IMG/VR virus record: IMGVR_UViG_3300031521_000124
Span: 1-44,636 of that record
Reading direction: 5' to 3' (one strand)
Origin: a virus
DNA length: 44,636 bases
Shown here: positions 431 to 38,556 of the stretch, one piece after another
Numbering within the stretch: the first letter of the stretch is position 1
How the letters are laid out: the number at the start of each line of letters is the position of its first letter
Program-made: the position numbers and the translations under genes
The notes under the pieces: generated by a model
Seen by the model: the letters and a program-made list of their open reading frames with translations, nothing else
The model's database searches: none
What the model was told of the DNA's origin: nothing

Positions 431-3400
431 ATGGCTGTATTTACAGGATTAGGAGCAGGAACAATTGGCGACCCTTATCAAATAACCACGTTAGCCCAAT
501 TTAAGACTATGGCGTTAGGTGCATTAATCAAAGACCCAGTGTTCACTGGTTCAGGATTGAACGATGCAGTCTCAAGCGGCGCATACACTGGAACTGACAC
601 TGCTAATGTCGACTTTACATTCAGAATAAGTGCAGCGGCATCCATAAAAACACACGCTAAGTACGATAATGGCACTGGATACGTCGTTGGCGATACTTTC
701 ACAATAAACGGAGGAAGCACACTTGCATTATGTACTGTAACACAAGTTGCAGGAAGTAGTGTTATTGCTTACACTTTGACATCTGCTGGCGCTGGCTACA
801 CTGTTGGTGATAACAAAGCCACGACAAATGTTACAGGAAATGGTTCAGGTTGCACAATCAGTGTACAATCAATTGTTGACTTATTTGCATGGAAGAAAGG
901 CGCAGGTGCTGAAACAATTGTAGCTATCACAGGTGCTGACATAACAATTGCCACTGGTTTGAAGATCAGGCATACTGCATTAGTTGGACATACATTAAAT
1001 GATACCTGGGTTGTAACATGTACCTTCGGTACGTACTACAAAATGATGAATGACATTGATTACGCGGCAGAAGCTACATTTGCACCATATTATTTCAATG
1101 CAAATTTGGATGGCAATGGCTTTGGCTTACTGAATCTGCCAATCGGAAATGGTGGCTTTGCAATCAAAGATGGAACTTATCTGAAGAACATAACTATACG
1201 GTATAATCGCAAGCATGCAACGCAAACTAACAACTTTGTATTGTATACACAAAATCGCACACTTGCAAATATAACATTAAGCAACATACATGTTCTAATA
1301 ACAGGCACTGCTAATGCATTAACAGCATTTGTTAATTCGTCAGATACGTTGGCTGCTTCATGTGTTGTAAATAATATTGCCATTGAAGGCAGCATAATCG
1401 GAACATTTCCTGGTACTGTCAATTGTTTAGTCGAGCATATCAAAGTTCTTAGGACAAACTTAGTTACAATTGGTGGCCCTAACGTTGCAATTATTGGCAC
1501 GCTTAATGGCAATATGAGTTATTGCCAAAACATAATACCATCTGTCATAAGCACAACACAGATTAACTCGTCGTATTTAGTCAACAATCTTGGTCCGAAT
1601 GTTCTGGTCAAAGAAAGTTTTGCTTTAGTGAATGCCGAGATAACTTATGCTACAGATGCTAATGCAACGCATGGCTTATTCAATTACCTGACAAATGTTG
1701 CTAACATTTCATCTGTTCAAGATTCATATTTCAAAGGTAATTTAGCAGTCAACAGAGGTGCAACTTTGTTAGGCAAAGCTGGCTACACATTTGGTGTCAT
1801 TCCAACGTTACACGTTAACAGGTGTTTTTCATCTGGAAATGTCAACACGCCAGCAAATGACAATCGGACAATTTTGCAACCTGAAAGTGCTAACAGTGCA
1901 ACATACTTAGCAAATAACTATTACAACAAAACTAAGATAACAAGCATAACGCCAAAAGACATTGCTGGTCAGCAAGTAGGTTTAACATCAGCACAATTTG
2001 TTGACACAGCCAATTTCAATACTTGGGACTTCGCTACCATTTGGGCGATGGGCTCTGATGGCCCTGTTTTACGTAACAATCCAGTGTATGCCTTTGAATC
2101 AGATATGCGATCACTTAACGTACAATCTGTAACAAGGAACTCGCCATCTTCTATAACTGCATTGCTTTCAACAACCTGGGAATTTGATGTGTACGGTTTA
2201 GAAGTATCATTAGATGGAACCATAATATACGATGTTACTGGTGTTCTGTCAAACAACGTTACTTTGGATGATGCCAAAGATGGCTTGTACACATTGAAGG
2301 CTTATTGGCTTGATTCAGGTGTTAAGTATTATGCAAATACTACAACATATCAGCATTATTGCATGAATGCAGCTTACACCGAAACAACTGTTGCGGTAGA
2401 TAGTCAAACAGCACTAGCAGGAACTGTTGATGCTAACCTTGTACACGGAAGTTGCATATACAATGGTTATGTTTACGGAAGTACAAGGAATAAGCAATTT
2501 CCTACGCAGCCTGGATGCATTGTAAAAGCGCCATTAGCAAATCTAGCAGCATTTGTTAACTATCCTATCTGGATTACATCCGAAGGCGTAGGAAAATCAA
2601 GCGACATGGATCAAATTATTGAGCTTGGCGGATACCTTTATGCTTTATCAGCTAGTGATGAAAGTGGCAGTGTTAGTGGATGTTCTCTGATTCAATTTAA
2701 TACCTCTACAAATGATTACAAAGTTTTTTCACTAGGACCCTATAATAAAGGTGCACCTATTTTCACGGACGGAGCATATCTGTATATAACTTACCAAGCA
2801 CACACTATAAAGGTTGATCCTGCAGACTTTATTGCGATTGATACGAAGTTCAATACTTATGGATCATTTGCCTATACTGTGATAGGTTCTTATGATCATA
2901 ATTCGCAAGGTGGTCATATCTTAGGTGGCTATCCTGATGATTGTAAAGGGTATATCCACTCGGCATGTGCAGATGATCAATTCATATACTTAGCATTCAC
3001 GACAAGAGGAAACTTATTAACAGATAACAGCGGTTACGCTGTAACTTTGAACAAATCAATGCATGAATTGCATAAAGTCAACAAAGCAACAATGCTTGCT
3101 GATTCATGGATATCAATACCTAAAGCAACTGATGACATGAGCCAAACAGGTACACATTTGTATATGGGTGTTGAAGTACAAGCAGGTGCTGACATAAGAA
3201 CATTTGGTTACGGATGGAGTATAAGTGCTGTTCGTAAATCAGATTTAGCATTGACAGGCTTGCCTAAAGGGCATTCTACTGATAATCCACCTACAATTCA
3301 ATCATACGGAACCTTGGTTTTCGGTAATTATTTGTTTGACATACGTACAAATCAAAGGACACATGTCATAGACATTACAAATGTTGATGCTTGGTCACCA

Positions 3401-3943
3401 ACAGAACCAATAGCAAAAAGGACATTAGCTTGCATTAAATATACTTACTTAGGTGCAGAATTGACATCTACCCCTAACGAAATATTGTTGGCACCATCAG
3501 GCAAATTCTACATGTTTTTGTGGTCATCACCATCTTCCGTGGTACAAACTGATATTCCTATTGCATTGAATTTCTTTGCAATACCAACTGTTGACACAAT
3601 GAACACCGAATATAGCGAATTGGCAATACAATTAGTAGGCTATGTACTTAACGACGGTGGCAAACCTATCATAAGTCGTGGCTTTAAATGGGGTACAGCA
3701 TTCGATGCACTCACTAACACTTTAACAAGTGGTGAGACTACAACAACCTTTAATGCGATACTTATGGGATTAACTCCTGGCACATACTTCTACCAAGCAT
3801 ATGCTATTAATAGTGAAGGGGAAGGCTACTCAGCAGTTAAGAGTTTTACATTACAGGATTACCACTGGAGGATTAAAGTTGTCAGTAATAATAAATCAAC
3901 TTATAGTTCTGATAATTTAGTTACCTCATTTAAAAATAATTAA
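431..3943 (+). CDS. Giant tail fibre / receptor-binding adhesin (1170 aa)
   Basis: This is the largest gene in the window. The N-terminus (GAGTIGDPYQITTLAQFKTM) is the G-x-G-x-x-x-D-P-Y-x-I entry motif that opens GLUG-like beta-helix adhesins of Bacteroidetes and their phages. Residues about 78-145 carry two related Y-x-V-G-D strands, which look like an internal repeat. Residues about 200-500 are N/T/I-rich and suit a beta-helix. Residues about 700-1040 are aromatic- and Gly-rich with propeller-like strands. Residues about 1075-1155 form an Fn3-like domain (RGFKWG, LTPGTYFYQAYAINSEGEGYS). There is no signal peptide, as expected for a virion protein. It probably binds a host surface glycan; the exact receptor cannot be read from sequence. 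Ends in TAA. Confidence 0.75.
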   Translation: MAVFTGLGAGTIGDPYQITTLAQFKTMALGALIKDPVFTGSGLNDAVSSGAYTGTDTANVDFTFRISAAASIKTHAKYDNGTGYVVGDTFTINGGSTLALCTVTQVAGSSVIAYTLTSAGAGYTVGDNKATTNVTGNGSGCTISVQSIVDLFAWKKGAGAETIVAITGADITIATGLKIRHTALVGHTLNDTWVVTCTFGTYYKMMNDIDYAAEATFAPYYFNANLDGNGFGLLNLPIGNGGFAIKDGTYLKNITIRYNRKHATQTNNFVLYTQNRTLANITLSNIHVLITGTANALTAFVNSSDTLAASCVVNNIAIEGSIIGTFPGTVNCLVEHIKVLRTNLVTIGGPNVAIIGTLNGNMSYCQNIIPSVISTTQINSSYLVNNLGPNVLVKESFALVNAEITYATDANATHGLFNYLTNVANISSVQDSYFKGNLAVNRGATLLGKAGYTFGVIPTLHVNRCFSSGNVNTPANDNRTILQPESANSATYLANNYYNKTKITSITPKDIAGQQVGLTSAQFVDTANFNTWDFATIWAMGSDGPVLRNNPVYAFESDMRSLNVQSVTRNSPSSITALLSTTWEFDVYGLEVSLDGTIIYDVTGVLSNNVTLDDAKDGLYTLKAYWLDSGVKYYANTTTYQHYCMNAAYTETTVAVDSQTALAGTVDANLVHGSCIYNGYVYGSTRNKQFPTQPGCIVKAPLANLAAFVNYPIWITSEGVGKSSDMDQIIELGGYLYALSASDESGSVSGCSLIQFNTSTNDYKVFSLGPYNKGAPIFTDGAYLYITYQAHTIKVDPADFIAIDTKFNTYGSFAYTVIGSYDHNSQGGHILGGYPDDCKGYIHSACADDQFIYLAFTTRGNLLTDNSGYAVTLNKSMHELHKVNKATMLADSWISIPKATDDMSQTGTHLYMGVEVQAGADIRTFGYGWSISAVRKSDLALTGLPKGHSTDNPPTIQSYGTLVFGNYLFDIRTNQRTHVIDITNVDAWSPTEPIAKRTLACIKYTYLGAELTSTPNEILLAPSGKFYMFLWSSPSSVVQTDIPIALNFFAIPTVDTMNTEYSELAIQLVGYVLNDGGKPIISRGFKWGTAFDALTNTLTSGETTTTFNAILMGLTPGTYFYQAYAINSEGEGYSAVKSFTLQDYHWRIKVVSNNKSTYSSDNLVTSFKNN

Positions 3944-4008: not shown

Positions 4009-4737
4009 ATGATAAATATACTAATAATACCTGATGTACATGGAGAAAAATCTTGGAAAATTCCAGCAGATGCAGCAATTTTAGCAGGGAAAAAAATCAT
4101 ATTTCTTGGTGATTATGCAGATGGATATGATATTACATCTAATGAATGCATAGCTAATTTAAAGCAAATTATTCTTTTAAAACGGATGCACCCTAAATTA
4201 GTTACTCTACTTTTAGGTAATCATGATTTTGCTTATGTTTTCAATGAAATGGGAACTTCGGGATTCGATCCTCTTGCGGCATTCGATTATTATCAAGTAT
4301 TTCAAAAAAATTGGAGTTTATTTGATTTAGCCTGGGGATATACAAACGAAGATGGAAAATACACGCTATTTACACATGCTGGGTTAACCAAAAGTTTTTA
4401 TAAAAGTATTCTATGGGAAATAGAAGACGAAAATAGTAAATTACACAGACTTTTAAAGGATGTTGATTTTTCAATTCTTCCATTACATGAATTGCTCAAT
4501 TATATTAAAGATGATAATGATCTTTTATGGGAAATAGGTAGAGCTCGCAATGGATATTATTTATCAGGGAGCATTGTATGGGCAGATAAATCTGAATTAC
4601 TTAGAGAACCTTATCCGGGAATTAATCAAGTAGTAGGACATACTTGTGGATATTCAATCGATATACAAATAAGAAATGGTAATACACTATATTTTACTGA
4701 TAATCTATATAGGCTTCCATTATCCATAACATTATAG
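4009..4737 (+). CDS. Metallophosphoesterase (PP2A/calcineurin-like), 242 aa
   Basis: Motifs of the PPP-type metallophosphoesterase fold appear in order: PDVHG (about residues 8-12, metal-binding D-x-H), GDYADG (about 34-39), GNHD (about 72-75), THAGL (about 123-127) and VGHTCG (about 209-214). All expected metal ligands are present, so it is probably active. Substrates could be phosphoproteins, nucleotides or RNA ends; none can be chosen from sequence. No signal peptide, so cytosolic. It is expressed from its own promoter with the TATATTTG box 4 nt before the ATG. The stop is TAG, one of several in this phage; suppression would add about 20 residues. A second, unrelated phosphoesterase lies at 18.5 kb. 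Confidence 0.85.
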   Translation: MINILIIPDVHGEKSWKIPADAAILAGKKIIFLGDYADGYDITSNECIANLKQIILLKRMHPKLVTLLLGNHDFAYVFNEMGTSGFDPLAAFDYYQVFQKNWSLFDLAWGYTNEDGKYTLFTHAGLTKSFYKSILWEIEDENSKLHRLLKDVDFSILPLHELLNYIKDDNDLLWEIGRARNGYYLSGSIVWADKSELLREPYPGINQVVGHTCGYSIDIQIRNGNTLYFTDNLYRLPLSITL

Positions 4738-6584: not shown

Positions 6585-8450
6585 TTATATGATATTTTTA
6601 GGAAAAGTTCTTTCGTATTTCATATTTCCGGTTCCCCAGATTTTAACAAACCCTCGATCTCTCATTATTTCATCTTCTGTTTTATTGATATCATACCCTG
6701 CCTTTACTAATTTATGTTTCATAAAATTACTTCTATGTTGTTTTAAATTATTTTTATACCACCAGTAATTCAATCCAGTATGCCCCTTAGATATAAATCC
6801 AAGAGTTTCATAAAAACTCCCATCTGATATATCACATGACGCGTAACTTAAAATTGTTCCCGGTTCATATATTTTTATAAAGTGAGTTAACAATTTAGAT
6901 GCTCCGCCCACAACTGATGTTTCTAATTTATTACAAAAACGAAGAAGCTCGTAATCTTTTAAAGATGCTGATTTTGAACGCAAAACCATGCGTTTTTTAC
7001 CAAAAGTCATAAGAGACACAAGTTCTTCATTATAATATAATCCTAAATTTATTGAAGATGGACAGGCGCCTTGTAAATGATTCTCATTAAGAAATGTAGT
7101 CTTATCATCATTTGAAACATTTTTTATTGTGCACTTTCTTGCATAAATTTTAATATCAAGTAAACCTAATTTAGCTTTAATAATTGATTTAATGATATTT
7201 TGCTTCAAATTCCAATCATCTTCCCAAATATACAATAGAGAAATATTATTCTCATTACACAATTTCCATTTTTTGAAATGTTCGTCTTTTGTTCTATTAA
7301 ATTCATTATGCCAATAGAGGCCATTGAACTCAATTCCAATTTTCTTCGAAGGAATAAAAATATCGAGTTCTTTACCAAGGGTTCGATATGATTGTTTAGC
7401 ATCTGGAAAGTGAGTTCGTACCCACTTAAATATGATATTTTCTTGTGATGAGACAGTAATTGAATTTAAATGTTTTTCACAATACATATTATAATTTGTC
7501 TTAGAATAACAAAAATTTACCTCTTCATTACAATCTTTATGTGAGCATTTATTTTTTGTAGACAAATTGTGCTTAAATAAAAAAACTTTTTCGCTCCATA
7601 TTAAATCATCATATTTTTTAGAAAATTGAGTAATTGCTTTAAATAATTCAGGATAAATTCGATAGATAATTTTTTCATTTGACCCCTTTGTGTTTAAGGA
7701 ATTTAAAAGTTTTAATTGTTCATCATAATTCAAATTTTCAAATTGATCTATATAGGATTCTTTACATTGATCACATAATAAATATTTCTTTTCATTGAGA
7801 TTGTCACTATGAAGCTCATATAATTTATTAAGATTCCATTTTTTTATAACAACGTTTCCGTGTTGGCAATAGTCATGCACTGACGCGTTTGAGCCTTGTA
7901 ACGTAACTTTATAATTTAATGCAGCATATCTATTTTCATATAATTCTGTATTAACTTTTTCATGATGATCATGTAAAATTCGTGTATAGTGTCCAGATTC
8001 TTTTAAAAAATTGCTTTTACACTTACCAGGGCAAAATTGTGGCACAACATCTTTAGTATACACGATTTGAATATCTTGACCACAATATTTACAAACAGGA
8101 AGTGTTCGCAAATTATTCTTAAACATATACACGCTCAAAAACCAATTATTGATATGGAGATGTTTAGTAAAACTACAAATTCCCGCATATAATTCTGGAT
8201 GTGTTGCATAAATCAATTCTTTGCCAGGTTTTTTAATACTTAATAGATCTTTTATTAGAATATCATAATCATAAATAAGATTATCGTTTAATGAAGCCTC
8301 ATCTAAACAATATTTGCATAATAAAAACTTTTTGGTGTATATATCATTACCATATTTTAATAACATTGCTTTAAAAGAAACACTCCACATGACAGCATCG
8401 CCATGTTTGCAATAATCTGGTATTGTTGTTTTATTTTTAGTTGATTGCAC
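6585..8450 (-). CDS. Homing endonuclease, VSR-like nuclease plus C-terminal domain (621 aa)
   Basis: The N-terminal half has repeated Cys-rich modules (C-x2-C at about residues 45-48, 117-120, 213-216) that look like zinc-binding DNA readers. Residues about 360-385 (LDIFIPSKKIGIEFNGLYWH) form the E/D...E-F-N-G-x-Y-W-H core of VSR-like (EDxHD) homing endonucleases such as I-Bth0305I. A conserved C-terminal domain follows (ARKC, NHLQGACPSS, LMTFGKKR, ELLRFC, VVGGASKL). The start is GTG (8448-8450). It is paralogous over the last 300 residues to the + strand gene at 13039, and the pair flanks the capsid genes. It probably cuts a related phage genome to spread itself. Confidence 0.8.
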   Translation of the reverse strand: MQSTKNKTTIPDYCKHGDAVMWSVSFKAMLLKYGNDIYTKKFLLCKYCLDEASLNDNLIYDYDILIKDLLSIKKPGKELIYATHPELYAGICSFTKHLHINNWFLSVYMFKNNLRTLPVCKYCGQDIQIVYTKDVVPQFCPGKCKSNFLKESGHYTRILHDHHEKVNTELYENRYAALNYKVTLQGSNASVHDYCQHGNVVIKKWNLNKLYELHSDNLNEKKYLLCDQCKESYIDQFENLNYDEQLKLLNSLNTKGSNEKIIYRIYPELFKAITQFSKKYDDLIWSEKVFLFKHNLSTKNKCSHKDCNEEVNFCYSKTNYNMYCEKHLNSITVSSQENIIFKWVRTHFPDAKQSYRTLGKELDIFIPSKKIGIEFNGLYWHNEFNRTKDEHFKKWKLCNENNISLLYIWEDDWNLKQNIIKSIIKAKLGLLDIKIYARKCTIKNVSNDDKTTFLNENHLQGACPSSINLGLYYNEELVSLMTFGKKRMVLRSKSASLKDYELLRFCNKLETSVVGGASKLLTHFIKIYEPGTILSYASCDISDGSFYETLGFISKGHTGLNYWWYKNNLKQHRSNFMKHKLVKAGYDINKTEDEIMRDRGFVKIWGTGNMKYERTFPKNII

Positions 8451-13038: not shown

Positions 13039-14781
13039 ATGATTTGTAAAATAGAAAATTGCCAATTTGAAAATGAATCCCAAAGAAGTTTCATTCATCA
13101 CATTAAACATGAGCATAATATTAATTCTTTAGAAGAGTATTTTAATGATTTCGAAGCTGTTTCGCCTGTAAAATGTGAATACTGTAATAATGAAGCATCA
13201 TGGAACGATAAAACTCATTTATATCGTAAAGTCTGTCATGATAAAAAGTGTATAGGAAAGTATGCTCATAGTATTGCAAAAGAAAATAATTTCAAAAATT
13301 TCGGTATAACAAATGTAAGCCAATTACAAAAAGTCAGAGATAAAATTGATGCTACTAAATTTCAACGATATGGAAGTTCCCATTATAATAATATTGATAA
13401 AAATAAGCAAACTTGTTTAGAAAGATATAATGTTGATAATGGTTCAAAAACACAAGAATCAAAAGAGAAAATCTCTAAAAAATATAATGAATCAAATAAA
13501 GAGAATAGAAAACAAAAGACTATTGAAACTAATCAATTAAAATATAACGTTGATTGGAATTCTCAATCTATAATAATGCAAGAACATCGAAAAGAATCAA
13601 ATTTATCAAAATATGGTGTCGAGCATCCTATGCAGAATAAAGAATTTTATGAAAAACGAAAATCTGATTTTTTAGAAAAATTTGGTTATGCATATATAAC
13701 ACAAATTCCGGATGTTCGTGCAAAAATATCTTCTACTAATTACGAAAAATCCAAACAACAAATTTTAAATATTTTCAAAGATGTTATCGTCGGTTTTCCA
13801 GAATATGGATTAGTTACAATTAAATGTCCAGTATGCAAACAAGAATCAACTATGCCAGCAGGATTTATGATGCAACGAAACAAATTCACTACCGATATTT
13901 GTTTGCATTGTACACCATATAATATTCCAAGTTATGTGCAGATTCAATTAAGTAAATGGATAGAAGGTCTTGGAATAGAAGTAAAAAATAATTATAAAAT
14001 TCCCGGCAGTCAAAAAGAAATCGATATTTTTATTCCAGAAAAGAATATTGGATTTGAATTTAATGGAATATACTGGCATAGTGATAAATTCCAACCGAAA
14101 TTTTCCCATAAAAATAAAAAAATGCTTGGTATTAATGCAGGAATTAATATTATTACAATTTGGGAAGATGATTATCATGGAAAATGGGATATTATTGCTA
14201 GTAAGATAAAAAATTCTGTTGGATTACCCGAAGAATCTATAGGAGCAAGAAAATGTCAAATTAAAAATATTGATAATAAAACTGCTAAAGAATTTATATC
14301 ATCCAATCATATTCAGGGATTTATAAATGCCAAAATTTGTATTGGACTTTATTATAAAGATGAATTAGTTTCTGTAATTTCTTTTGGAAGGCGAAATGGT
14401 TTAAAGGAAAATGAATGGGAAATATTAAGATTTTGTTCAAAATTGGGTTATAATGTGCAAGGCGCTTTTAGTAAACTTATAAAGCATTTTAAAGAAATTT
14501 ATATGCCTACAGTGATAGTTACATATATTGATTTAGACTGGTGTAATTATAGAAATAATGTCTATGAAAAAAACGGATTTGAATTTGTATCAGAAACTGA
14601 GCCTGGCTATACATACACAACTGGTAAATATCGAGAATCTCGACAAAAATATCAAAAACATAAACTTGTAAAAGAAGGATACGACATAAATAAAACTGAA
14701 TCTGTTATTATGTCTGAAAGGGGTTATTATAAAGTTTGGAATTGTGGCAACTTAAAATATAAATGGACTCGTAAGCAATAA
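13039..14781 (+). CDS. Homing endonuclease, zinc repeats plus VSR-like nuclease (580 aa)
   Basis: The N-terminus has a C2H2-like finger (C3, C8, H21, H27) and a C-x2-C pair (CEYCN). Repeated segments of the type F-x-x-Y-G-x-x-x then follow (KFQRYGSSHY, CLERYNVDNG, NLSKYGVEHP, FLEKFGYAY), as in the DNA-binding repeats of large phage endonucleases. Residues about 320-350 carry the VSR-like core (EIDIFIPEKNIGFEFNGIYW, then HS). The C-terminal domain (ARKC, NHIQGF, VISFGRRN, EILRFCSKL) is shared with the 6585-8450 gene. It sits just after the capsid terminator with its own AT-rich promoter-like leader. It probably spreads by cutting relatives near the capsid genes. Confidence 0.8.
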   Translation: MICKIENCQFENESQRSFIHHIKHEHNINSLEEYFNDFEAVSPVKCEYCNNEASWNDKTHLYRKVCHDKKCIGKYAHSIAKENNFKNFGITNVSQLQKVRDKIDATKFQRYGSSHYNNIDKNKQTCLERYNVDNGSKTQESKEKISKKYNESNKENRKQKTIETNQLKYNVDWNSQSIIMQEHRKESNLSKYGVEHPMQNKEFYEKRKSDFLEKFGYAYITQIPDVRAKISSTNYEKSKQQILNIFKDVIVGFPEYGLVTIKCPVCKQESTMPAGFMMQRNKFTTDICLHCTPYNIPSYVQIQLSKWIEGLGIEVKNNYKIPGSQKEIDIFIPEKNIGFEFNGIYWHSDKFQPKFSHKNKKMLGINAGINIITIWEDDYHGKWDIIASKIKNSVGLPEESIGARKCQIKNIDNKTAKEFISSNHIQGFINAKICIGLYYKDELVSVISFGRRNGLKENEWEILRFCSKLGYNVQGAFSKLIKHFKEIYMPTVIVTYIDLDWCNYRNNVYEKNGFEFVSETEPGYTYTTGKYRESRQKYQKHKLVKEGYDINKTESVIMSERGYYKVWNCGNLKYKWTRKQ

Positions 14782-17499: not shown

Positions 17500-17515
17500 G
17501 ATTTGTATTTTTTTG

Positions 17516-17588
17516 CGGGAATGGAGGGACTTGAACCCTCGATCACGGTTTTAGAGACCGCTGCCCTAACCAACTGAGCTACAAACCC
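17516..17588 (-). tRNA. Amber suppressor tRNA (anticodon CUA)
   Basis: A cloverleaf folds on the minus strand: D stem GCTC/GGGC, anticodon stem GCGGT/ACCGT, loop CTCTAAA (anticodon CTA, reads UAG), a 4-nt variable loop, T stem GAGGG/CCCTC with loop TTCAAGT, acceptor GGGTTTG/CATTCCC, discriminator G73. The acceptor has two U-U mismatches (4-69, 5-68). CCA is not fully encoded. The anticodon arm equals that of E. coli tRNA-Trp apart from the middle anticodon base (CCA to CTA) and the outer stem pair; that same change made the classical Su7 suppressor, which inserts mostly Gln. Trp descent is inferred. It lies 12 nt downstream of a gene with an in-frame TAG. Confidence 0.85.
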
Positions 17589-17593
17589 ATAAA

Positions 17594-17618
17594 GGGCCCC
17601 TCATAAGAGAGGAAGCCC
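17594..17618 (-). other. GC-rich hairpin between the PTH2-like stop and the tRNA
   Basis: GGGC-(2)-CCTC, a 6-nt loop, GAGG-(1)-GCCC forms a strong bulged stem in otherwise AT-rich sequence, covering the last codons and the TGA of the PTH2-like gene and ending 5 nt before tRNA position 1. No T-run follows on the minus strand, so it is more likely a processing or stability element than a terminator. Confidence 0.45.
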
Positions 17619-17894
17619 ATTAAACATTTTTGAGTCGGTTAAACATGCTAATGCAGTAATTTCGTTATTTATGTCAGGTTCTCTGAATACTGAATATTCC
17701 ATATCTTTGTAATGAACTTTATTAAGCCATTTTTCAAGAGATTCTTTGTTTCCAACATTCAAATAAATTAACGTTTGATTGTTCCATGTGTTCTATGGAA
17801 AATCTAACATCCATTGTGCAACGGCATGTCCAGCCTGAACCGCAGATGAAGATCGATTAAGATCTGACCTCACTAACACATAGAGCTTCTCCAT
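17601..17894 (-). CDS. Peptidyl-tRNA hydrolase 2-like protein with in-frame amber codon 34
   Basis: The frame runs from ATG 17892-17894 to TGA 17601-17603 (97 codons) with one TAG at 17793-17795 (codon 34). Both sides clearly belong to one protein: KLYVLVRSDLN and AVQAGHAVAQWML before the stop, then LIYLNV, EYSVFREPDINNEITALAC and the GLPLL end after it. This matches the PTH2 fold, whose members release peptides from stalled peptidyl-tRNA. The catalytic Lys of canonical PTH2 (in GKGK) is Ser here (RSSSA), so activity may differ. Its start overlaps the upstream gene by 38 nt in another frame. Full length requires UAG decoding, and an amber-decoding tRNA lies just downstream. It could otherwise be a decayed gene. 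Confidence 0.75.
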
Positions 17895-18156
17895 ACTTTG
17901 CAAGTAATTCAGTTAGTTTTCGTTCAGAATAATCAGTGTCCTTTGAGATAATTTGGAAAATTTCTTTTCCTTTTAATACTCCGTATGCGATATACATATG
18001 CATGAGTTCATGTTTTTGTTCTCTTGCTAATGCAGCTGCATCGTTTGGTTTCATTGTTCTTACTCCGATGAATCTAACGGCTTTGCGTTGTTCTTTCGTT
18101 GCTCTTTGTTTTGCAGCGAGTACTGCGATTGCTGATTTTAAGTCTTTTCTTGTCAT
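17857..18156 (-). CDS. Hypothetical protein (99 aa)
   Basis: Basic N-terminal helix rich in Lys, Arg and Ala (residues 1-30), then HELMHMYIAYGVLKGKEIFQ and an acidic helix with DYSERKLTELLAKYG. The His-Glu-x-x-His spacing (HELMH) resembles a zinc-peptidase motif, but no third ligand or wider metalloprotease context is visible, so it may be chance. Its last 13 codons overlap the PTH2-like gene in a different frame. It probably belongs to one operon with PTH2, the tRNA and GH16. Function unknown. Confidence 0.6.
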   Translation of the reverse strand: MTRKDLKSAIAVLAAKQRATKEQRKAVRFIGVRTMKPNDAAALAREQKHELMHMYIAYGVLKGKEIFQIISKDTDYSERKLTELLAKYGEALCVSEVRS

Positions 18157-28180: not shown

Positions 28181-28978
28181 TTAAATTTTAACTAAATGAT
28201 CTAAAATTACTAATTTAGGATTTATTGATTGATCATAAAACCAATTCTTTGGAGTAGTTACAATTTTATTTGGATTTTTATTGAGCCAGGCAGCCCACCA
28301 ACTAAATGTACTATTTGCGATAATGTTATGTTTACAATTACTCATTAACTGCATATCTTTCCAAGAATCCATTGATACATTTTCGACATATGTAACGTCA
28401 ACTGACATATTCTTTTTACACCAAGAAATATCATCAGAAAATACAAAGAATTTTAAAGGTCGTGATTTTTCATTATGAGCAATATACGCAATAGCACTTC
28501 CATAATAATTTAGCCAATTAGGTTGAAAGAAATAATTTATATGATTAACGTTTGTGTAATCTCCTCTTCTCACATGTATAGACACACTATTTGACGATTG
28601 AATATCTTTCAAAACTTCCTGATTTCGTGGATCTAAATATTGTTTGAACGTAAAATTTCTACGTAAAATTTCTTCATCAGGAAAATATGCAGGATTTTGC
28701 CAATTTCCACATAAGTATACATCGTCCATAGTTAATACCGCCGGATTAAAACCCGGCCATGTGTTTTCCTGAAATCGCGTTAAATTATCAACTTCAACTA
28801 TATTTTCAATTGGACGAGCTACGATGTTAAAAACTTTCTCTAATTCAAACCCATTATGATAAAGTCGTGTATGAATTCCTTCATACTTAACATCATCATT
28901 ATAATTGAATAAATTACGATATAACGCGTATTGAAACATTTGGTTGCCTAAGCCGCCTATCATTTGAACTATTTTCAT
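28181..28978 (-). CDS. GT11 alpha-1,2-fucosyltransferase-like (265 aa)
   Basis: Opens with IVQMIGGLGNQMFQYALYRN, the GT11 entry motif. SIHVRRGDYTN carries the H-x-R-R-G-D-Y donor-site motif, and NSTFSWWAAWLN the third conserved block. The family moves L-fucose (or galactose) from GDP-fucose to glycans in an alpha-1,2 linkage. Length fits. It is the last gene of the sugar-transfer operon, overlapping the preceding gene by 4 nt. A GDP-mannose dehydratase-like enzyme upstream could help make its donor. Confidence 0.85.
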   Translation of the reverse strand: MKIVQMIGGLGNQMFQYALYRNLFNYNDDVKYEGIHTRLYHNGFELEKVFNIVARPIENIVEVDNLTRFQENTWPGFNPAVLTMDDVYLCGNWQNPAYFPDEEILRRNFTFKQYLDPRNQEVLKDIQSSNSVSIHVRRGDYTNVNHINYFFQPNWLNYYGSAIAYIAHNEKSRPLKFFVFSDDISWCKKNMSVDVTYVENVSMDSWKDMQLMSNCKHNIIANSTFSWWAAWLNKNPNKIVTTPKNWFYDQSINPKLVILDHLVKI

Positions 28979-29628
28979 TCAGATTTTCCTTTCCATTCGT
29001 TATACCAATAGATTCCACCGTTACATCCCGGAGTTTTAAAATTATGAAAGCCAAAGGGTTTAATGTTTTTATCGAGCATAGTTTCTTGCGCAAATTGTAA
29101 TGCCAAATCTACAGGAGGATATTTAATGTAATTAGGCTTTGCACAATCCAACACATTTGAATAATATTTGTCTTCATTATCATTGATTAAATAATAATTA
29201 TCAGACACGTATTTACATATCTTTTTACTCCGTAAAGAAAATCCGCCATTACCGATTCCTGGTTGACTCTTTTTATCTCTAAACCTACTTCCATAAAATG
29301 CCCATGGAGCTCCAATGTAATCATAATTAAGAAACTCATCAGTCCATGATTCTGGATTAATAATGAATCCATCAGCATGAGTTGTCATACAAAATTCTGT
29401 ATCAAAGCATTTCCATATCTCTCTTATAAAATATAAGCTATATTGCTCCATAGTTTCAATCTTTGGAGTTTTATACCACTTAATTTCAGGATGATAAAAT
29501 GGTTCATGACTTAGCATTCGTACTTCAGCAAAATTTGCATGCTTCATACAAGCTTCCAATCCTTCAATGGGAAAGGGCTTACCCCAAATATGAAGTACTA
29601 ATAAAGTTACTTTTGGAAGATTTAACAT
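28975..29628 (-). CDS. DUF5672 glycosyltransferase-like protein (217 aa)
   Basis: The segments MTTHADGFIINPESW, YDYIGAPW, GIGNGGFSLRSKK and PVDLALQF, with a late FGFHNF, are those of DUF5672 proteins, GT-A-like enzymes of surface glycan loci. HADG probably replaces the D-x-D. Overlaps both neighbours (4 and 7 nt). Acceptor unknown. Confidence 0.75.
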   Translation of the reverse strand: MLNLPKVTLLVLHIWGKPFPIEGLEACMKHANFAEVRMLSHEPFYHPEIKWYKTPKIETMEQYSLYFIREIWKCFDTEFCMTTHADGFIINPESWTDEFLNYDYIGAPWAFYGSRFRDKKSQPGIGNGGFSLRSKKICKYVSDNYYLINDNEDKYYSNVLDCAKPNYIKYPPVDLALQFAQETMLDKNIKPFGFHNFKTPGCNGGIYWYNEWKGKSE

Positions 29629-30257
29629 TTCTTTGTGAATATCATTGAACCTTTGAAAAAACTTATACTGTAAACATCTATAACTTCATCAATCATTAAA
29701 TGCTTAATCTGATCTAATATAAAATTATCGATAGTATGCTTTTCATTATTAAGGTCTAAATTAGCATCATTATATCTCATGCCTGGCCACGTATTTCGAA
29801 CATCATATTTTCCCAAATCTGTCCAACACCCGGGTACATCTTCTATGACGTAAACTCCATTATTTCTTAAAAGAGGAAAATATAATTCAAATGATTTAAG
29901 AGTTAACGTATTCACATGACTTCCGTCATCAATGATAAAATCAAATGCACCATAACGATTTTTGATTTGATTCCTGATATCTTCGCTATCTTGTGATCCA
30001 ATATAAATATCGATTCTATCTTCCTTATATTGGCGGCATCTTGGATCGATATCAATTCCGACTATTTGTGAAGTTGGTAAATATTCTTTCCATGTTTTTA
30101 CAGAAGCTCCAGTCAATACTCCAATTTCTAAAAGATTCAGCGGTTGATTTCGTCTATAAAATAAGTAGTTATCATAAAGTTGGAGATAAGTAATCCCTTT
30201 ATGTCCATTGCGACTTTTATCAGTCCCATATTTTAATCCAATTTCTTGTAATTCCAT
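29622..30257 (-). CDS. SAM methyltransferase, cephalosporin hydroxylase/MycE-like (211 aa)
   Basis: GTDKSRNGHKGITYLQLYDN and LLEIGVLTGASVKTW (motif I, E-x-G-x-x-x-G) are typical of CmcI/MycE-type class I methyltransferases; VGIDIDPRC is motif II and FDFIIDDGSHV the acidic metal/substrate motif. Such enzymes often O-methylate sugars. It lies inside the operon with only 0-7 nt spacing. Substrate inferred to be a sugar. Confidence 0.75.
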   Translation of the reverse strand: MELQEIGLKYGTDKSRNGHKGITYLQLYDNYLFYRRNQPLNLLEIGVLTGASVKTWKEYLPTSQIVGIDIDPRCRQYKEDRIDIYIGSQDSEDIRNQIKNRYGAFDFIIDDGSHVNTLTLKSFELYFPLLRNNGVYVIEDVPGCWTDLGKYDVRNTWPGMRYNDANLDLNNEKHTIDNFILDQIKHLMIDEVIDVYSISFFKGSMIFTKKC

Positions 30258-30965
30258 TTAGTGTAAAATATAAGATTGTTTTAAATAATAATCATATGAG
30301 GAGTGATCTGAATCCCAAATTCTTTTGTAGATATGTTTCTCTACAGCTGGTAAATCATCTAATCTATCAATCAAAACAAGAGTAGAAGTTGCGACAGTAT
30401 GAATTGTTTTTGCTTTATAAATAACTTTAAGCCAATCGAGCATATTGTATTGAGGGTCGTCCATATTCATATAGACATTTCGTAACCCATTATTAACTTC
30501 AATTTTTGTCTTTTGAAATATGCGAGTTTGATTTTCATTAATAACATTAAACTCTTCGTTTTCTTCTAACCCTAAAGATGCGAATAACTTATCTTCCATT
30601 GCATAATCACGAGTAATTTTAAAAGTCCTCCACATTTCCATTGGGAGTCCTACAAAATCATACTTGTCTTTCATGCATGAGCTTAAAACACTTTTTCCAT
30701 GAATAATAACATCAGCCCACCTAAATGGAAATGACTTATACTCATCATCTTCATAGATAAAATGCTTATTATCATAGTATGGATAATTAAAGAATAGGTT
30801 TTCAGGAATAAATTTAACTTCAGGAAAATTCTTTTGATGTTTATGAAAATGCACGGCAGTAGGCCACACTATTTTATGACCTTCGGCATTCCATTTTTGA
30901 GCAATGGCCATAATAAACATTATGTCACCAAGCCCTGCCGGTTGATTAAAAAAATATTTTTTCAT
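30258..30965 (-). CDS. GT-B/GT9-like glycosyltransferase-related protein (235 aa)
   Basis: FNQPAGLGDIMFIMAIAQKW resembles the G-x-G-D-x-x-x nucleotide-sugar/heptosyltransferase start. Later segments (HTVATSTLVLIDRL) suit the donor domain end where GT9 enzymes have a T-x-x-x-H/S loop. It is short for a full two-domain GT-B enzyme, so may be a reduced form. Overlaps the FkbM gene upstream by 4 nt. Confidence 0.5.
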   Translation of the reverse strand: MKKYFFNQPAGLGDIMFIMAIAQKWNAEGHKIVWPTAVHFHKHQKNFPEVKFIPENLFFNYPYYDNKHFIYEDDEYKSFPFRWADVIIHGKSVLSSCMKDKYDFVGLPMEMWRTFKITRDYAMEDKLFASLGLEENEEFNVINENQTRIFQKTKIEVNNGLRNVYMNMDDPQYNMLDWLKVIYKAKTIHTVATSTLVLIDRLDDLPAVEKHIYKRIWDSDHSSYDYYLKQSYILH

Positions 30966-31594
30966 ATTTTATTATTAACAAATACATCATCTATTCCTAA
31001 TCTTCTAATAAATGAAAAATCTTTTGACTTCATGAATTCACGAATTGGAGATTCATTCTCACCATTTTCATAAATCACTACTTTAATCTTAAATTTCTTA
31101 AAGTCAATGCTTTTTAAAATTTTTAATTCAGACCCTTCAGTATCAACAGAAAGAAAATCAATATCGTATATTTTATTCTCATCAAGCATTTCATTTAAAA
31201 TTCTTGTTTGAATATTAATTACTTTACGCTTTGCTCCCATTCTAGAACCCTCAGATAAAATATGACCCATGTGAACAAATGAAATATCTTTTGCTATTCC
31301 ACTGAGCATATCTGGGTACCCGTCATATTCTAACATAGTAAATTTTTCAATTCCATTGCTATCATATGCAGCTACATTATATGCTTTACAATTACGGCAA
31401 GCAATTAATTTATTATACTCATGTATCATTGGTTCGACACATAATCCTGTCCATCCAAATTCTTTTTCAAGTACGTAAGTATTTGATAGTGTTTCACCAT
31501 CATGAGCTCCAATATCTACAAATACTCCATCGCGTTTTCCTTTAAAATAGTTGATAATAAACTCGTCTTGTTTGTGTTGACTCCTAAATTCCAT
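30962..31594 (-). CDS. FkbM-family methyltransferase (210 aa)
   Basis: QDEFIINYFKGKRDGVFVDI followed by GAHDGET is the FkbM motif I; TGLCVEPM is motif II, and DFLSVDTEGSELKIL the conserved D-x-E-G-x-E motif. These enzymes usually O-methylate sugars or other small hydroxyl groups. It is one of three adjacent FkbM copies that have diverged strongly, suggesting different positions methylated. Overlaps its neighbour by 11 nt. Confidence 0.85.
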   Translation of the reverse strand: MEFRSQHKQDEFIINYFKGKRDGVFVDIGAHDGETLSNTYVLEKEFGWTGLCVEPMIHEYNKLIACRNCKAYNVAAYDSNGIEKFTMLEYDGYPDMLSGIAKDISFVHMGHILSEGSRMGAKRKVINIQTRILNEMLDENKIYDIDFLSVDTEGSELKILKSIDFKKFKIKVVIYENGENESPIREFMKSKDFSFIRRLGIDDVFVNNKI

Positions 31595-32195
31595 ATCTAA
31601 TTTTTTCGTATATTGTGTTTACTGCTGATTTTTTACAATTTCTGTATCTAAAATTTTGTAAAAAATCACTGACTTCTTTTTCATTATGAAGATTTTCAAC
31701 CATAATTACCTCTGGTTGATATTTTTTTAAATCAAATCCTTTTAATACTTCTAATTCCCAACCTTCGGTGTCTATTGATATGAGGTCTATTTTTTCTACA
31801 AGTATTTTTTGAAGTAAACAATTTAAAGTTCGAACATTTATTTTAATTTCTGAAAGATTATGTTCTCCTTTATATCTCATTCCTAAACTGGAATAACTCA
31901 TTGCATCTTGTTCATTATTTGAATTAAAATTATGAACAAAAAATGAAGAATCGTCTTCATCATGATCGCTAATTGCACATTCATAAATTTCGTTGCCTTC
32001 TTTACGATGTAAATTAGCATAAAATGGGTTTGGATCTATGCAAATAGTTCTCCAACCTCTTTCTCTAAAACCTTTAGACATACTTAAATATTCTGGAGGA
32101 CCTGCTCCAACTTCAATCATTACGCCATCACGTTTTCCACTAAAATGTGAATCGTAAATAAATTGATCAACACCCAATTCTGCGTACCAGCCCAT
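31584..32195 (-). CDS. FkbM-family methyltransferase (203 aa)
   Basis: DGVMIEVGAGPPEYLSMSKG is a changed motif I, with ICIDPNP as motif II and DLISIDTEGWELEVLKGFDL intact. SAM binding is likely preserved. Ends in TAG, overlapping the next ATG region; the next in-frame stop is 13 codons further, so suppression would add a tail. Sugar O-methylation inferred from context. Confidence 0.8.
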   Translation of the reverse strand: MGWYAELGVDQFIYDSHFSGKRDGVMIEVGAGPPEYLSMSKGFRERGWRTICIDPNPFYANLHRKEGNEIYECAISDHDEDDSSFFVHNFNSNNEQDAMSYSSLGMRYKGEHNLSEIKINVRTLNCLLQKILVEKIDLISIDTEGWELEVLKGFDLKKYQPEVIMVENLHNEKEVSDFLQNFRYRNCKKSAVNTIYEKIRYGI

Positions 32196-32197
32196 AT

Positions 32198-32797
32198 TTA
32201 TTTTACGTAATTTTTATTCACAAACCAATCCTCAAAAGGTAAATTATTTGAATCTGGGCAACATACATCTTCAAATGCAATAACATAATCATGTGCTAAC
32301 ATAATTTCCTTTATTTTATTTTTAAGAGTAAGATCACCTAAATACGCGTTATGTTCAATTGTCCATAAAATACTTAAATGAGTATCAAATGGAAACGTTG
32401 TAAGAGCTTCATATTCAGCACCTTCAATATCTAAACTGATATAATCAATAATATTGGGGACATTATTTTCTTCTATTAATGTCTTAAATGAAATCATCTG
32501 AACTGGAATACCAGCATTTTCATTAACCGATGACCACTGCGCATTAAAATATCCAGTGCCATTTTTATTATAAAGAGCTTTTTCAATAATGGGAACTCTT
32601 CTGCACATTCGTAATACTGGTAAATGTATATAATAAGGTTCTACACATAAACCTTTCCATCCATATTTTGTTTCTAAAATGTAGGTATTATTAGATGTAA
32701 TGCCGTCTAAGGACCCTATGTCTAAAAAATATCCATCACGCTTTTCATTGAAAAATTCAACTACCCATTTATCTTGTTCTGCTTGTCCTCTATACAT
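32198..32797 (-). CDS. FkbM-family methyltransferase (199 aa)
   Basis: QAEQDKWVVEFFNEKRDGYF, LDIGSLDGITSNNTY (motif I), LCVEPYY (motif II) and YISLDIEGAEYEAL are the FkbM set. Starts inside the end of the epimerase gene (8-nt overlap). Same arrangement as its two downstream relatives. Confidence 0.85.
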   Translation of the reverse strand: MYRGQAEQDKWVVEFFNEKRDGYFLDIGSLDGITSNNTYILETKYGWKGLCVEPYYIHLPVLRMCRRVPIIEKALYNKNGTGYFNAQWSSVNENAGIPVQMISFKTLIEENNVPNIIDYISLDIEGAEYEALTTFPFDTHLSILWTIEHNAYLGDLTLKNKIKEIMLAHDYVIAFEDVCCPDSNNLPFEDWFVNKNYVK

Positions 32798-33728
32798 CGT
32801 AAAAATTTATTAGTTCATCAAGAATATTTTCTAAAGAATATGCAATTTCCCAACCAAGAGTTTCTTTTGTCCAATAATTTGATCCCAAATAATTGTTCTC
32901 TTGTTTTATATTCACTAAATCCGTATTAGTTCTAACTTTACTTACAGGAATATTAAGTTTATTAAAAACATAATTAACTACTTCTTCTACTGTATGCATA
33001 GAATCCCCACATATTATATAATCATCTGGAGTATTTCTTTGCATTGACAAATATGCGACATTAATTACATCCTTTGCATGAATCCAAGTTCTTTTTGCTT
33101 GTAAATCTCCAAGTTCTAAAAAATCGATTTTGCCATTTTTAATATCAACAGCACCCTTTACAATTTTTGGAAGTAAAAAGTGCATATTTCTTCTAACAGA
33201 TTCATGATTATAAAGTCTTCCTATAACTGCAAACACATTAAAATGTTTTCTGTAAGTATTTATCATGTTTTCTGCATAAAGTTTTGAACTTCCATAGGGA
33301 GTTGTTGGATGTTTACTAGTACTAATTCTCTGAATTAAATCAATATCTGAATAATTTCCATACACTAATGAAGAAGATGCTTGAAATAATTTAGTAGAAG
33401 GGTTCTTTTTCAAATAATCTAGAAACATAACAACGGGAACTGTATTAGCATACAACAATTCTAGCGGATTATCAAAGGCTGCTAAGTTATCAGAATTTCC
33501 TCCAAAGTTATAAATTTCATCAAACTTTAAATTTTTTAAAAAAGCGCCAAGTCGTATAGTATCAGTAAGATTAAAAGCTATATGTGTTAAATTTGGAGCT
33601 TGTAAATCATCTTCATACTTTATATCTATAGCATACACTTCATATCCTTTTTCTAAAAGGAATTTACACATATAAAAGCCATCTTGACCTGCCGCGCCTG
33701 TCACCAAAGCCTTACGCATTTTGTTCAT
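32790..33728 (-). CDS. GDP-mannose 4,6-dehydratase-like SDR enzyme (312 aa)
   Basis: The Rossmann motif is ALVTGAAGQDGFYMCKFLLE (G-x-x-G-x-x-G), the catalytic pair YGSSK (Y-x-x-x-K), with SSSLVYG before it and LYNHESVRRNMHFL, the R-x-x-x-F/V substrate loop of GMD. Family members turn GDP-mannose into GDP-4-keto-6-deoxymannose, the precursor of GDP-fucose or GDP-rhamnose. At 312 aa it is somewhat short. No GDP-fucose synthase is visible in the window. Stop is TAG. A second ATG three codons in is also possible. Confidence 0.8.
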   Translation of the reverse strand: MNKMRKALVTGAAGQDGFYMCKFLLEKGYEVYAIDIKYEDDLQAPNLTHIAFNLTDTIRLGAFLKNLKFDEIYNFGGNSDNLAAFDNPLELLYANTVPVVMFLDYLKKNPSTKLFQASSSLVYGNYSDIDLIQRISTSKHPTTPYGSSKLYAENMINTYRKHFNVFAVIGRLYNHESVRRNMHFLLPKIVKGAVDIKNGKIDFLELGDLQAKRTWIHAKDVINVAYLSMQRNTPDDYIICGDSMHTVEEVVNYVFNKLNIPVSKVRTNTDLVNIKQENNYLGSNYWTKETLGWEIAYSLENILDELINFYDV

Positions 33729-34089
33729 AAGATTTTTCTTCTATTATTGATGAATTATATTTGATATTTATTTGTTTTTTAATATCCGAGCGTATATCAT
33801 TAGTGTGATATATGTTTTTTGATGTTAAAATAAAAGAATCGTCAAATTCATTCAATGATTCTTTTAAACGAATCAATTCTTCTAGTTCCCATAAATAAGT
33901 ATTTGCGTGTATAAGATCAAAAAGATAAAAATCATCGATAGGATATTCATCAATAATTAATTTTATCTTATCATATTCAGTTTTTATGTTTATGAGTTTT
34001 TCTTCATCTTTAATTCGTAAAAGTTTTATCTCCAGAATTGAAAATTTATCATAAAGTTCACCTAATGAAATCGGGACTAATATTTCCAT
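33712..34089 (-). CDS. DUF6165 family protein (125 aa)
   Basis: VPISLGELYDKFSILEIKLL is the hallmark opening of DUF6165 proteins, which are found beside glycosyltransferases in many surface-glycan loci. The rest is helical. No enzyme motif. It overlaps the dehydratase by 17 nt and follows the C-methyltransferase by 2 nt. Confidence 0.75.
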   Translation of the reverse strand: MEILVPISLGELYDKFSILEIKLLRIKDEEKLINIKTEYDKIKLIIDEYPIDDFYLFDLIHANTYLWELEELIRLKESLNEFDDSFILTSKNIYHTNDIRSDIKKQINIKYNSSIIEEKSYEQNA

Positions 34090-34091
34090 AA

Positions 34092-35369
34092 TTAAATTAT
34101 TTCGAATTTTGGGCAGGGCACGATGAAATGGCCTCCATTTGTTAAGTAATCAGATTCTCTTAAAGTAAATTCATTAATAAAGTGCCAAGGAAGAACTAAA
34201 AGATAATCTGGTTTAACATTTCTCATTGATTGCTCAGAGTGAATTGGGATATTCGTTCCTATCGTTTTAAGCCCATATTTATAAGGGCTTCTTTCCGCTG
34301 CACCATCAATTATTTCACTATCTAAACCAAACCATTGAAGTAATGTATTTCCCTTTGTTGAGGCACCATAAACCCAGATGCTTTTTCCTTGTTCCCTTGC
34401 TTCTTTTATAAAATTAATTGTTTGATCTTTTAACTCTTGTATATTATTCCAAAAAGTCATGTAAGTTTCAACTTGTTCAAGATGCATATTAGCTTCATAA
34501 GTTCTTAAAGAAGCTAATCTCATATTTGCTACATCCCTATAGGGTGAAGACCCAAATGAACTTGGATGTGCGTTTTCTTTTTGAATGTATAATCTAAAAC
34601 TTCCTCCATTGACATCGTTTAATTCCACATCAACCACCTTAAATCCAGATTGTTTAAGAATATACTCCATTGAATATAATGAATGATAAAATACGTGCTC
34701 ATGACAAATATTATCAAATGCTAGTTGTTTTATCATTAATGGCATATAACTTTGTTGAATAACAAATAAACCATCATTTTGCATTATATCATAAACATCA
34801 TCTAAAAATTTTTTGGGATCTTCTAAATCATAGAACATTGCAATACACGTAACTATCGAAGCATTCCGGCGTAAAATAATAGAATCAAGCCCGACTATAC
34901 TTACCGCTTTTTCGTAAACTTCTTTTGAAAAGAAATCTTGTATTGCTAAATTACATTTTTGCTTTGCTTCGTCTTGAAATACTCCTTCGGCAGGATCAAT
35001 CCCAACTGTAAAATATGATTGTTTAGGAACAAAACTTAATAACGTTCCATCATTCGAAGCAATATCAAGAAAAATTTTATCACTGACATTAATCTTTGAT
35101 AATTTCATTACTTTTGTAGCAATATCTTGTAATTCAGTTTGCATGGATGCATTAGTATTAGAGTGATACCAATACTTACCAAACATGAAATCTTTATCTG
35201 CGTTTTCTTTTAACTGTAGGCATTGTGTTTCAGGTGACAACATCATCGTCAAGTCCCATTTTTTTACACCACGATAATCGCCATGAGTTTTAATAAAATC
35301 TGAAATATAGAGTTCTCCTAAAGAGAACAACTCCGTCATAGGTTTCCCTGTTATTCTACAATTTGTCAT
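34092..35369 (-). CDS. NDP-sugar C-methyltransferase-like (425 aa)
   Basis: Three parts: an N-terminal domain (CRITGKPMTELFSLGELYIS) of the zinc-binding type in deoxysugar C-methyltransferases; a SAM domain with FLDIASNDGTLLSF (motif I) and VGIDPAEG; and a C-terminal domain with WVYGASTKGNTLLQW and DYLLVLPWHFINEF. Relatives such as TylC3/NovU-type enzymes add a methyl branch to 4-keto sugars, which would follow the dehydratase here. The active-site region FDNICHEHVFYHS is intact. Confidence 0.85.
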   Translation of the reverse strand: MTNCRITGKPMTELFSLGELYISDFIKTHGDYRGVKKWDLTMMLSPETQCLQLKENADKDFMFGKYWYHSNTNASMQTELQDIATKVMKLSKINVSDKIFLDIASNDGTLLSFVPKQSYFTVGIDPAEGVFQDEAKQKCNLAIQDFFSKEVYEKAVSIVGLDSIILRRNASIVTCIAMFYDLEDPKKFLDDVYDIMQNDGLFVIQQSYMPLMIKQLAFDNICHEHVFYHSLYSMEYILKQSGFKVVDVELNDVNGGSFRLYIQKENAHPSSFGSSPYRDVANMRLASLRTYEANMHLEQVETYMTFWNNIQELKDQTINFIKEAREQGKSIWVYGASTKGNTLLQWFGLDSEIIDGAAERSPYKYGLKTIGTNIPIHSEQSMRNVKPDYLLVLPWHFINEFTLRESDYLTNGGHFIVPCPKFEII

Positions 35370-36061
35370 ATTTTGTTTTTGAAATAAGTATAAGAACTAT
35401 GTATATTATCATTATGAGCTAAGTGCCCAGGGGTAGTTCCATCCCATACTGTTGAATCGTTTGCATTATGATAAGTCATAAATGGAAAATATGCGCATGA
35501 CTTTAATTTCTTTTGCTCTACCATATGCATTACCATATCATCGAAGGTCGTGAGTAAGCTTGAGGTGAATCGAGCGACCTTCGAATAAGCTTTATTATGA
35601 ACCATATAACTAAAAGCACCAACCATTTTGGGGGCTTCTATGAGCGTTGGTTTATCGTAGACTTTAAACTTTACATAATCACTATGACCACTTAAATAAA
35701 CATGCTCCCAATCTTCCGGCAATAATTTATGCAAAATATCTAAGCGTTCAAGCCAATCTTCACAAAGGACTACATCGTCTTCCAAGATGATAACGCTTTC
35801 AAACTTCATCATCTGTGCAAATTTTATTGCAGCAATCTGGGACATGATAATCGCAATTTCAGCTTTTTGAAATTTCCTACCTGTGCCATATCCCATAGCA
35901 ATATTTGCGTTGAATGAAAAGTTTGTTATGTAAACTCCATCATATACTGGCAAAAAGAAAAAGTCTTGATTCTCAACGAAGTTCAATCTTTCGAACTGGT
36001 TCGTCATTATTTCTTTCCTATTGCATGAACGCTCTAAATTTAATACAATTATCGGTATCAT
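35366..36061 (-). CDS. GT25-like glycosyltransferase (231 aa)
   Basis: IIVLNLERSCNRKEIM opens the LPS-type GT25 family; EIAIIMSQIAAIKFAQMM and the VIILEDDVVLCEDW (E-D-D metal site) follow. It likely adds galactose or a related sugar. Overlaps the C-methyltransferase by 4 nt. A second GT25-like gene lies at 38.6 kb. Confidence 0.8.
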   Translation of the reverse strand: MIPIIVLNLERSCNRKEIMTNQFERLNFVENQDFFFLPVYDGVYITNFSFNANIAMGYGTGRKFQKAEIAIIMSQIAAIKFAQMMKFESVIILEDDVVLCEDWLERLDILHKLLPEDWEHVYLSGHSDYVKFKVYDKPTLIEAPKMVGAFSYMVHNKAYSKVARFTSSLLTTFDDMVMHMVEQKKLKSCAYFPFMTYHNANDSTVWDGTTPGHLAHNDNIHSSYTYFKNKI

Positions 36062-36062
36062 G

Positions 36063-36734
36063 TTAGTCTTTTAATTCATAATAAAAATCGCCGTCGTCTG
36101 GTACAAAATCAATTAGATCATCATGTATTGAATAACAATTATATAATGGCACCAATGAATGATTAAGTTTTTCTTGAAATAGCTTTCTATTTTTCATATA
36201 TTGCCCATGATTAGACATACATAAGGATTTGAATTTGTATTTTATTAAATCATCAAGCAAATATTCTTCGCCTCCTTCAATATCGATTTTAAGAAAATCT
36301 GGATGGCCATATAGTTTTATAGCGGTTTCTATTGTAATAGTTTTAATTTGAGTAGAAAAAGGCGATGGATGATTAATTGAAGATAATGAATCACCGTATT
36401 TGCCTCCAATAAAGCCAAAATTGACATAGGTATCTTCGTTATAAAGACCATCTCTTACAATAGTTACATTTTCTAGATGATTATCTTTTACATTATTAAA
36501 AAGAGACTGCACTGCAACATAATCTGGCTCAAATGCAACTACTTTATTAAACGCCATTGATCCATATAAAGTGAAAGGCCCTATCCATGCTCCAATGTCC
36601 CAAAATACTTCTTTGCCTTTATTTTTTTCAATCCAATTAAAGGTGTATGGATCCCATGATTCTAAAGTACTCCATAACCAAGTGGAGTTAGAATCATTAA
36701 TCATAAAATTGTGGCCACGTATGTTTACATTCAT
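36063..36734 (-). CDS. FkbM-family methyltransferase (223 aa)
   Basis: VFWDIGAWIGPFTLYG is motif I, VVAFEPDYVAVQSL motif II, and PDFLKIDIEGGEEYLL the conserved acidic motif. This is a distinct, FkbM-like branch from the three at 31-33 kb. ATG at 36732-36734 is chosen because it overlaps the upstream stop as ATGA; a start 15 nt earlier is possible. Confidence 0.8.
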   Translation of the reverse strand: MNVNIRGHNFMINDSNSTWLWSTLESWDPYTFNWIEKNKGKEVFWDIGAWIGPFTLYGSMAFNKVVAFEPDYVAVQSLFNNVKDNHLENVTIVRDGLYNEDTYVNFGFIGGKYGDSLSSINHPSPFSTQIKTITIETAIKLYGHPDFLKIDIEGGEEYLLDDLIKYKFKSLCMSNHGQYMKNRKLFQEKLNHSLVPLYNCYSIHDDLIDFVPDDGDFYYELKD

Positions 36735-37484: not shown

Positions 37485-37487
37485 ATC

Positions 37488-38542: not shown

Positions 38543-38556
38543 AGATTTTATTTTAT

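Follow-up and report, generated by a model that had tools for sequence, protein, structure and literature searches.

What does a stop codon do inside a phage gene that lies next to a tRNA predicted to read it? The window analysed here, the whole 44.6-kb stretch, is a fragment of a virus, and its minus strand carries a PTH2-like gene (17601..17894; start ATG at 17892-17894, stop TGA at 17601-17603) that runs for 97 codons plus TGA when an internal TAG is read through. The TAG is codon 34 (17793-17795, minus strand) and the next base is A. The sequence-only reading of this DNA had reported a TAG at codon 34 with family sequence on both sides, and both observations were borne out, in the same frame. 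It had also placed a suppressor tRNA 12 nt beyond the PTH2 stop; at exactly this spacing and on the same strand, ARAGORN (label tRNA-Pyl) and Rfam (tRNA, 59 bits) identified a tRNA with a CUA anticodon (17515..17588, minus). Its acceptor stem has two U-U mismatches and CCA is not encoded. The tRNA fold and the CUA anticodon are those of an amber suppressor, with charging and activity in the host being predicted. On the other side of the gene, P2, a 99-aa helical protein (17857..18156, minus), extends over the first 38 nt of the PTH2 gene; comparison of its fold with the PDB gave no significant match.

Read through the TAG, the window gene scored 24.8 bits against Pfam PF01981 (PTH2), above the gathering cut-off of 23 (its relative L313, at 17.9 bits, lies under it), and matched phrog_3668 'hydrolase' (E 2e-12). 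An AlphaFold model of the product had a pLDDT of 94 and its best 15 matches in the PDB were all PTH2-fold proteins, with a TM of ~0.8 to 2zv3 and 1xty. In the predicted structure residue 34 falls in the loop that joins helix 14-31 to strand 42-47, and stopping there would leave the first strand and helix only. An assembly error at the TAG, or decay of the gene into a pseudogene, is very unlikely: the window is one metagenomic contig and a single base would account for the TAG, but there is no other stop in the 97 codons, the invariant family residues after the TAG are intact, and two relatives (L327 and L363), with the same tRNA alongside, also have a TAG in this loop.

The product therefore appears, from its sequence and predicted structure, to be a PTH2-fold protein. 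The active-site Lys, Asp and Thr are conserved in the PTH2 family of peptidyl-tRNA hydrolases. In the window protein the Thr is kept, the Asp is replaced by an invariant Glu and the GKGK lysine motif is absent. The archaeal and eukaryotic enzymes (2zv3, 1xty, 1q7s) share its fold (TM ~0.8) and are matched by sequence profile (E 1e-8), but they have the GKGK motif that the phage protein lacks. Because this family lysine motif is missing, peptidyl-tRNA hydrolase activity is uncertain.

A simple explanation for the internal TAG would be that the phage uses code 15 throughout, so that codon 34 is an ordinary glutamine codon. The phage does carry a CUA tRNA, and the recoded Lak phages have a related PTH2, which itself contains no TAG. 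In code-15 (TAG to Gln) Lak and crAss-like phages a phage CUA tRNA likewise decodes in-frame TAG, but there TAG occurs in many genes and is avoided as a stop, a pattern that the window phage does not show. Of the 49 window ORFs that reach 100 aa, 6 end in TAG, and the PTH2-like gene is the only conserved window gene found with an in-frame TAG. The record also carries a T4-type Gp23 capsid protein; among its closest relatives found is that of a 405-kb phage, in which 32 of 358 ORFs end in TAG. The next stop follows closely on these TAGs; a search of cultured phages for near DNA relatives of the window found none. Treating TAG as sense raised coding coverage from 0.84 to 0.86 in the window, compared with 0.46 to 0.83 in Lak-B5. 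The window phage is not recoded and keeps the standard code. Genome-wide code 15 was rejected, since TAG still terminates genes and coverage barely changes; we consider it hardly tenable. Here TAG is a normal stop, and the in-gene stop is confined to a single position in one gene or a few. Two Lak phages carry a UUA (ochre) tRNA ~600 nt upstream of the Lak PTH2 (L154, 3341-3413; L155, 3236-3308).

We then considered whether codon 34 is itself a switch. In the window's own clade P2, PTH2 and tRNA(CUA) form a tight conserved unit, with the tRNA usually just 3' of PTH2. Most PTH2 genes of this clade have no in-frame stop and a sense codon at position 34, with the CUA tRNA adjacent, which the sequence-only reading had named as an observation that would count against it. 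L002/L325 has no TAG, and no CUA tRNA within its 45.8-kb fragment. Thus the window clade conserves the linkage but not codon 34. Its idea of a PTH2 gene that needs stop decoding and is linked to a suppressor tRNA holds as a widespread, conserved arrangement (below), but not at codon 34 of this clade. As most relatives have sense at this position, the window TAG may be a tolerated amber and not a switch. It is quite possible that it is drift in a tolerant loop, allowed by an operon that carries an amber suppressor, and has no regulatory role. The ambers of L327, L363, L342 and L356 share the variable loop in which residue 34 lies, and most clade relatives have the tRNA yet a sense codon. On the other hand, the nearest relative in the tree (L363, 58%) also has a TAG in the loop, the gene family is stop-gated elsewhere, and even a neutral TAG makes the protein dependent on the tRNA. 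We rejected codon 34 as a conserved gate because the clade does not keep it, and the usual gate lies at codon 3-5.

The wider PTH2 family was therefore surveyed. A first profile search returned 80 loci; in almost all of them an in-frame TAG comes soon after the ATG, and most have a same-strand CUA tRNA no more than 4 kb away. In four of the loci surveyed (L018, L019, L020, L006) the gene opens with ATG-NNN-TAG, followed by the PTH2 core. Profile search, window-clade search and public huge-phage records together gave 128 loci, which a 70% identity threshold reduced to 70 clusters. Having been collected by profile, these sets do not amount to a random sample, and clusters that share descent are not independent. 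An early in-frame TAG, typically as ATG-AAA-TAG, precedes the PTH2 core in 32 of the 70 clusters, at codon 3 in 16, codon 4 in 7 and codon 5 in 6. A same-strand CUA tRNA lies within 2.5 kb in 46/70 clusters, against 7/70 for the next anticodon. This linkage of gene and tRNA recurs in dozens of phages and so is not due to chance. With its TAG at codon 34, the window gene lies outside the early-TAG group as defined by its opening (ATG, 1-6 codons, TAG, PTH2 core) and shares the group's second feature, a linked suppressor tRNA of matching anticodon. In the all-cluster phylogeny only the early-TAG clade is well resolved, and the window is loosely placed.

Several properties suggest that the early TAG is read. 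The ATG-TAG opening occurs in 22 of 60 PTH2 frames compared with 29 of 1607 other nearby frames (p=2e-20). A purine after UAG favours suppression, and the base after the gate TAG is a purine in all 32 clusters, compared with 36 of 65 ordinary TAG stops (Fisher p=7e-7). Co-occurrence of TAG and tRNA in relatives, the comparison that the sequence-only reading had proposed, gave a divided answer: in the early-TAG clade a CUA tRNA is nearby in 25 of 32 genes with the TAG and in 0 of 5 without it or with it bypassed (Fisher 0.0018, a descriptive value, as the comparison was devised after the tree had been seen and the labels were set partly by hand), whereas in the window clade the tRNA is mostly present without a TAG. 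In about 11 of the 32 early-TAG clusters the 8 kb inspected contained no CUA tRNA. A narrow pattern search of several larger records also returned none, a weak negative, as pattern searches missed real tRNAs: the two CUA tRNAs of Sinorhizobium phage Phosso were found only by ARAGORN on the whole record.

Could the early TAG instead end a short leader ORF, with PTH2 made by re-initiation or from a non-standard start and no suppression at all? The mycobacteriophages Myrna, HyRo and ScoobyDoobyDoo have a GTG directly after the TAG, and in the first two the Shine-Dalgarno sequence fits that GTG. In the cluster C mycobacteriophages, where the TAG lies beside a CUA tRNA, the annotated GTG start after the TAG fits the Shine-Dalgarno better, and for this reason we did not count them as gated. 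A leader is also seen in phage Summit (L372:530-942), where ATG-AAG-TAG-GTC-TAC-AAG-CCG-CCG-TAA, with a Shine-Dalgarno sequence just upstream, precedes a P2 homologue that ends 7 nt upstream of a suppressor tRNA; a tblastn search of Summit for PTH2 found none. P2 is a conserved partner of both PTH2 and the suppressor tRNA. What the suppressor tRNA of Summit is for was, according to the authors of that genome, still unknown (PMC9022506). Against a leader at the PTH2 loci in general, most have no ATG, GTG or TTG between the TAG and the core, and the frame is kept from the ATG into the core. Where visible, the Shine-Dalgarno sequence is spaced for the ATG that precedes the TAG. Moreover, TAG is replaced by TGA where the suppressor is UCA. 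We regard the leader explanation as unlikely and favour reading of the stop by the linked tRNA.

The change from TAG to TGA was seen in Agrobacterium phage Atu_ph07, which has been reported to carry an opal (UCA) suppressor tRNA (PMC6102473); we confirmed this tRNA. A TGA opening of its PTH2 gene was set as a test before the sequence was read and, as predicted, the gene starts with ATG, five codons, TGA and then the core, whereas the deposited CDS begins at a later ATG inside the core. This phage has three PTH2-like genes, of which the gated one fits and the other two, on inspection, show no such start. The Phosso orthologue, 72% identical to that of Atu_ph07, opens with ATG-AAG-TAT-TAG; this phage lacks a UCA tRNA and carries two with CUA, of which one lies ~4.4 kb upstream. 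L360 may be another opal example, with a TGA in the core followed by ATG and a UCA tRNA 3.6 kb off. Other loci speak against covariation: in L323 (4001-4400) a CUA tRNA adjoins a PTH2 gene whose loop carries TGA in place of the TAG seen in the window, and L147 and L336 have UCA tRNAs and no gating TGA. Comparison of orthologues therefore supports, mainly through one clean pair, the view that the stop codon tracks the suppressor anticodon.

The arrangement is also found in other cultured phages. In Tenacibaculum phage pT24 a PTH2/HD-like fusion is preceded by ATG-AAA-TAG, with a tRNA-Sup 2.5 kb upstream; in Xanthomonas phage XacN1 and Stenotrophomonas phage RAS14, both of which have CUA tRNAs, an HD-like-PTH2 fusion follows ATG-AAG-TAG. 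The TAG stays at the start of the ORF despite the swapped domain order (PTH2-HD-like in pT24, HD-like-PTH2 in XacN1 and RAS14). The HD label is a weak one, the Pfam match being sub-threshold and the HD motif visible, and a scan with the XacN1/RAS14 fusion confirmed no relatives. The XacN1 authors looked for read-through of amber gene ends and identified no targets for the suppressor tRNAs (PMC5852040). That search covered annotated gene ends; the annotated XacN1 CDS begins downstream of the TAG, which leaves the stop at codon 3 outside it.

Taken together, we think it probable that the window belongs to a phage module that ties a PTH2-fold protein to a suppressor tRNA, through a stop gate in the main clade, through co-transcription in the window clade and through both in the window itself. 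The anatomy of the genes, their conservation and linkage, and the stop/anticodon covariation are observed directly. From these we infer decoding in vivo, a regulatory role, any enzyme activity and the event that PTH2 would serve. In the main clade, where the stop comes 2-6 codons after the start, ribosomes would terminate and release a product of 2-4 residues; full-length PTH2 would be made only in the presence of the charged phage suppressor tRNA. In the window clade the tie would be mostly co-transcription, with P2, PTH2 and tRNA(CUA) in one run on one strand, and in the window the amber in the tolerant loop would add dependence of PTH2 on the same tRNA. Conserved stop-gating with a matched suppressor tRNA is better supported as a general phenomenon than in the window itself.

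The likely purpose would be to keep the amount of a peptidyl-tRNA-processing protein in step with suppressor activity, because suppression and early peptidyl-tRNA drop-off would create the expected substrates of PTH2. Peptidyl-tRNA drop-off early in elongation is documented (PMC10192219). The absence of the lysine motif, together with a second, canonical PTH2 that is present without a gate in several of these phages, argues against a simple enzyme. The positive feedback envisaged in the sequence-only reading is more speculative, as it would require PTH2 to raise suppression.

Bacterial prfB, which encodes RF2, has an in-frame UGA near its start and is autoregulated by +1 frameshifting and a host factor. 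It is alike in that an early stop in a translation-factor gene makes synthesis depend on termination or decoding status; it differs in that the proposed reader of the phage gate is a linked suppressor tRNA, matched to UAG or UGA. Pyrrolysine and selenocysteine are likewise inserted in few genes by a dedicated tRNA that reads a stop codon. The phage suppressor tRNAs, however, differ widely in sequence, which argues that no one amino acid is required, and since the residue would also fall in an unconserved N-terminus, its identity appears unimportant. Reading of a stop by a suppressor tRNA is known chemistry. We found no dedicated conserved gate of this kind described in the open-access literature, and the sequence-only reading likewise knew of no described pair like this. 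Suppressor tRNAs of standard-code phages, so far without a known target, thus gain a likely concrete one in cultured phages. If true, a tRNA-operated switch joins the means of gene control, and the databases give a wrong start for many phage genes.

Finally, early stops were sought in other genes. Genome-wide, pT24, which has a single suppressor tRNA, was clean, with PTH2 as the sole TAG case, while the early-stop frames of the GC-richer Phosso and XacN1 were mostly chance frames. The 29 ATG-TAG frames among the non-PTH2 frames near PTH2 were also mostly chance-like, with two groups conserved. We lean towards a small stop-gated regulon in standard-code phages, comprising PTH2, an HD-like partner and one or more other small genes, each with an amber or opal opening and made only with an active phage suppressor tRNA, which would be a dedicated on-switch and not a genome-recoding tool. 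The following groups came from a by-product look at a short list. An HD-like gene near PTH2 (phrog_14850) opens ATG-x-TAG in L102 (~3060-3628) and L342 (~2800-3371), 55% identical to each other, and by appearance it is homologous to the part fused with PTH2 in XacN1, RAS14 and pT24. An 82-aa gene adjoining PTH2 opens in the same way in L120 (~4346-4594), L134 and L145, with no Pfam or PHROG match. At ~-1292 relative to PTH2 in L351, a 399-codon frame begins M-K-N-L-TAG; its start resembles the PTH2 N-terminus and then diverges. Elsewhere in the window, two large homing-endonuclease-like genes (phrog_3339; 6585-8450 and 13039-14781) lie on opposite strands, and a long minus-strand gene run spans 28181-43417, in which several genes are glycosyl- or methyltransferase-like by eye.
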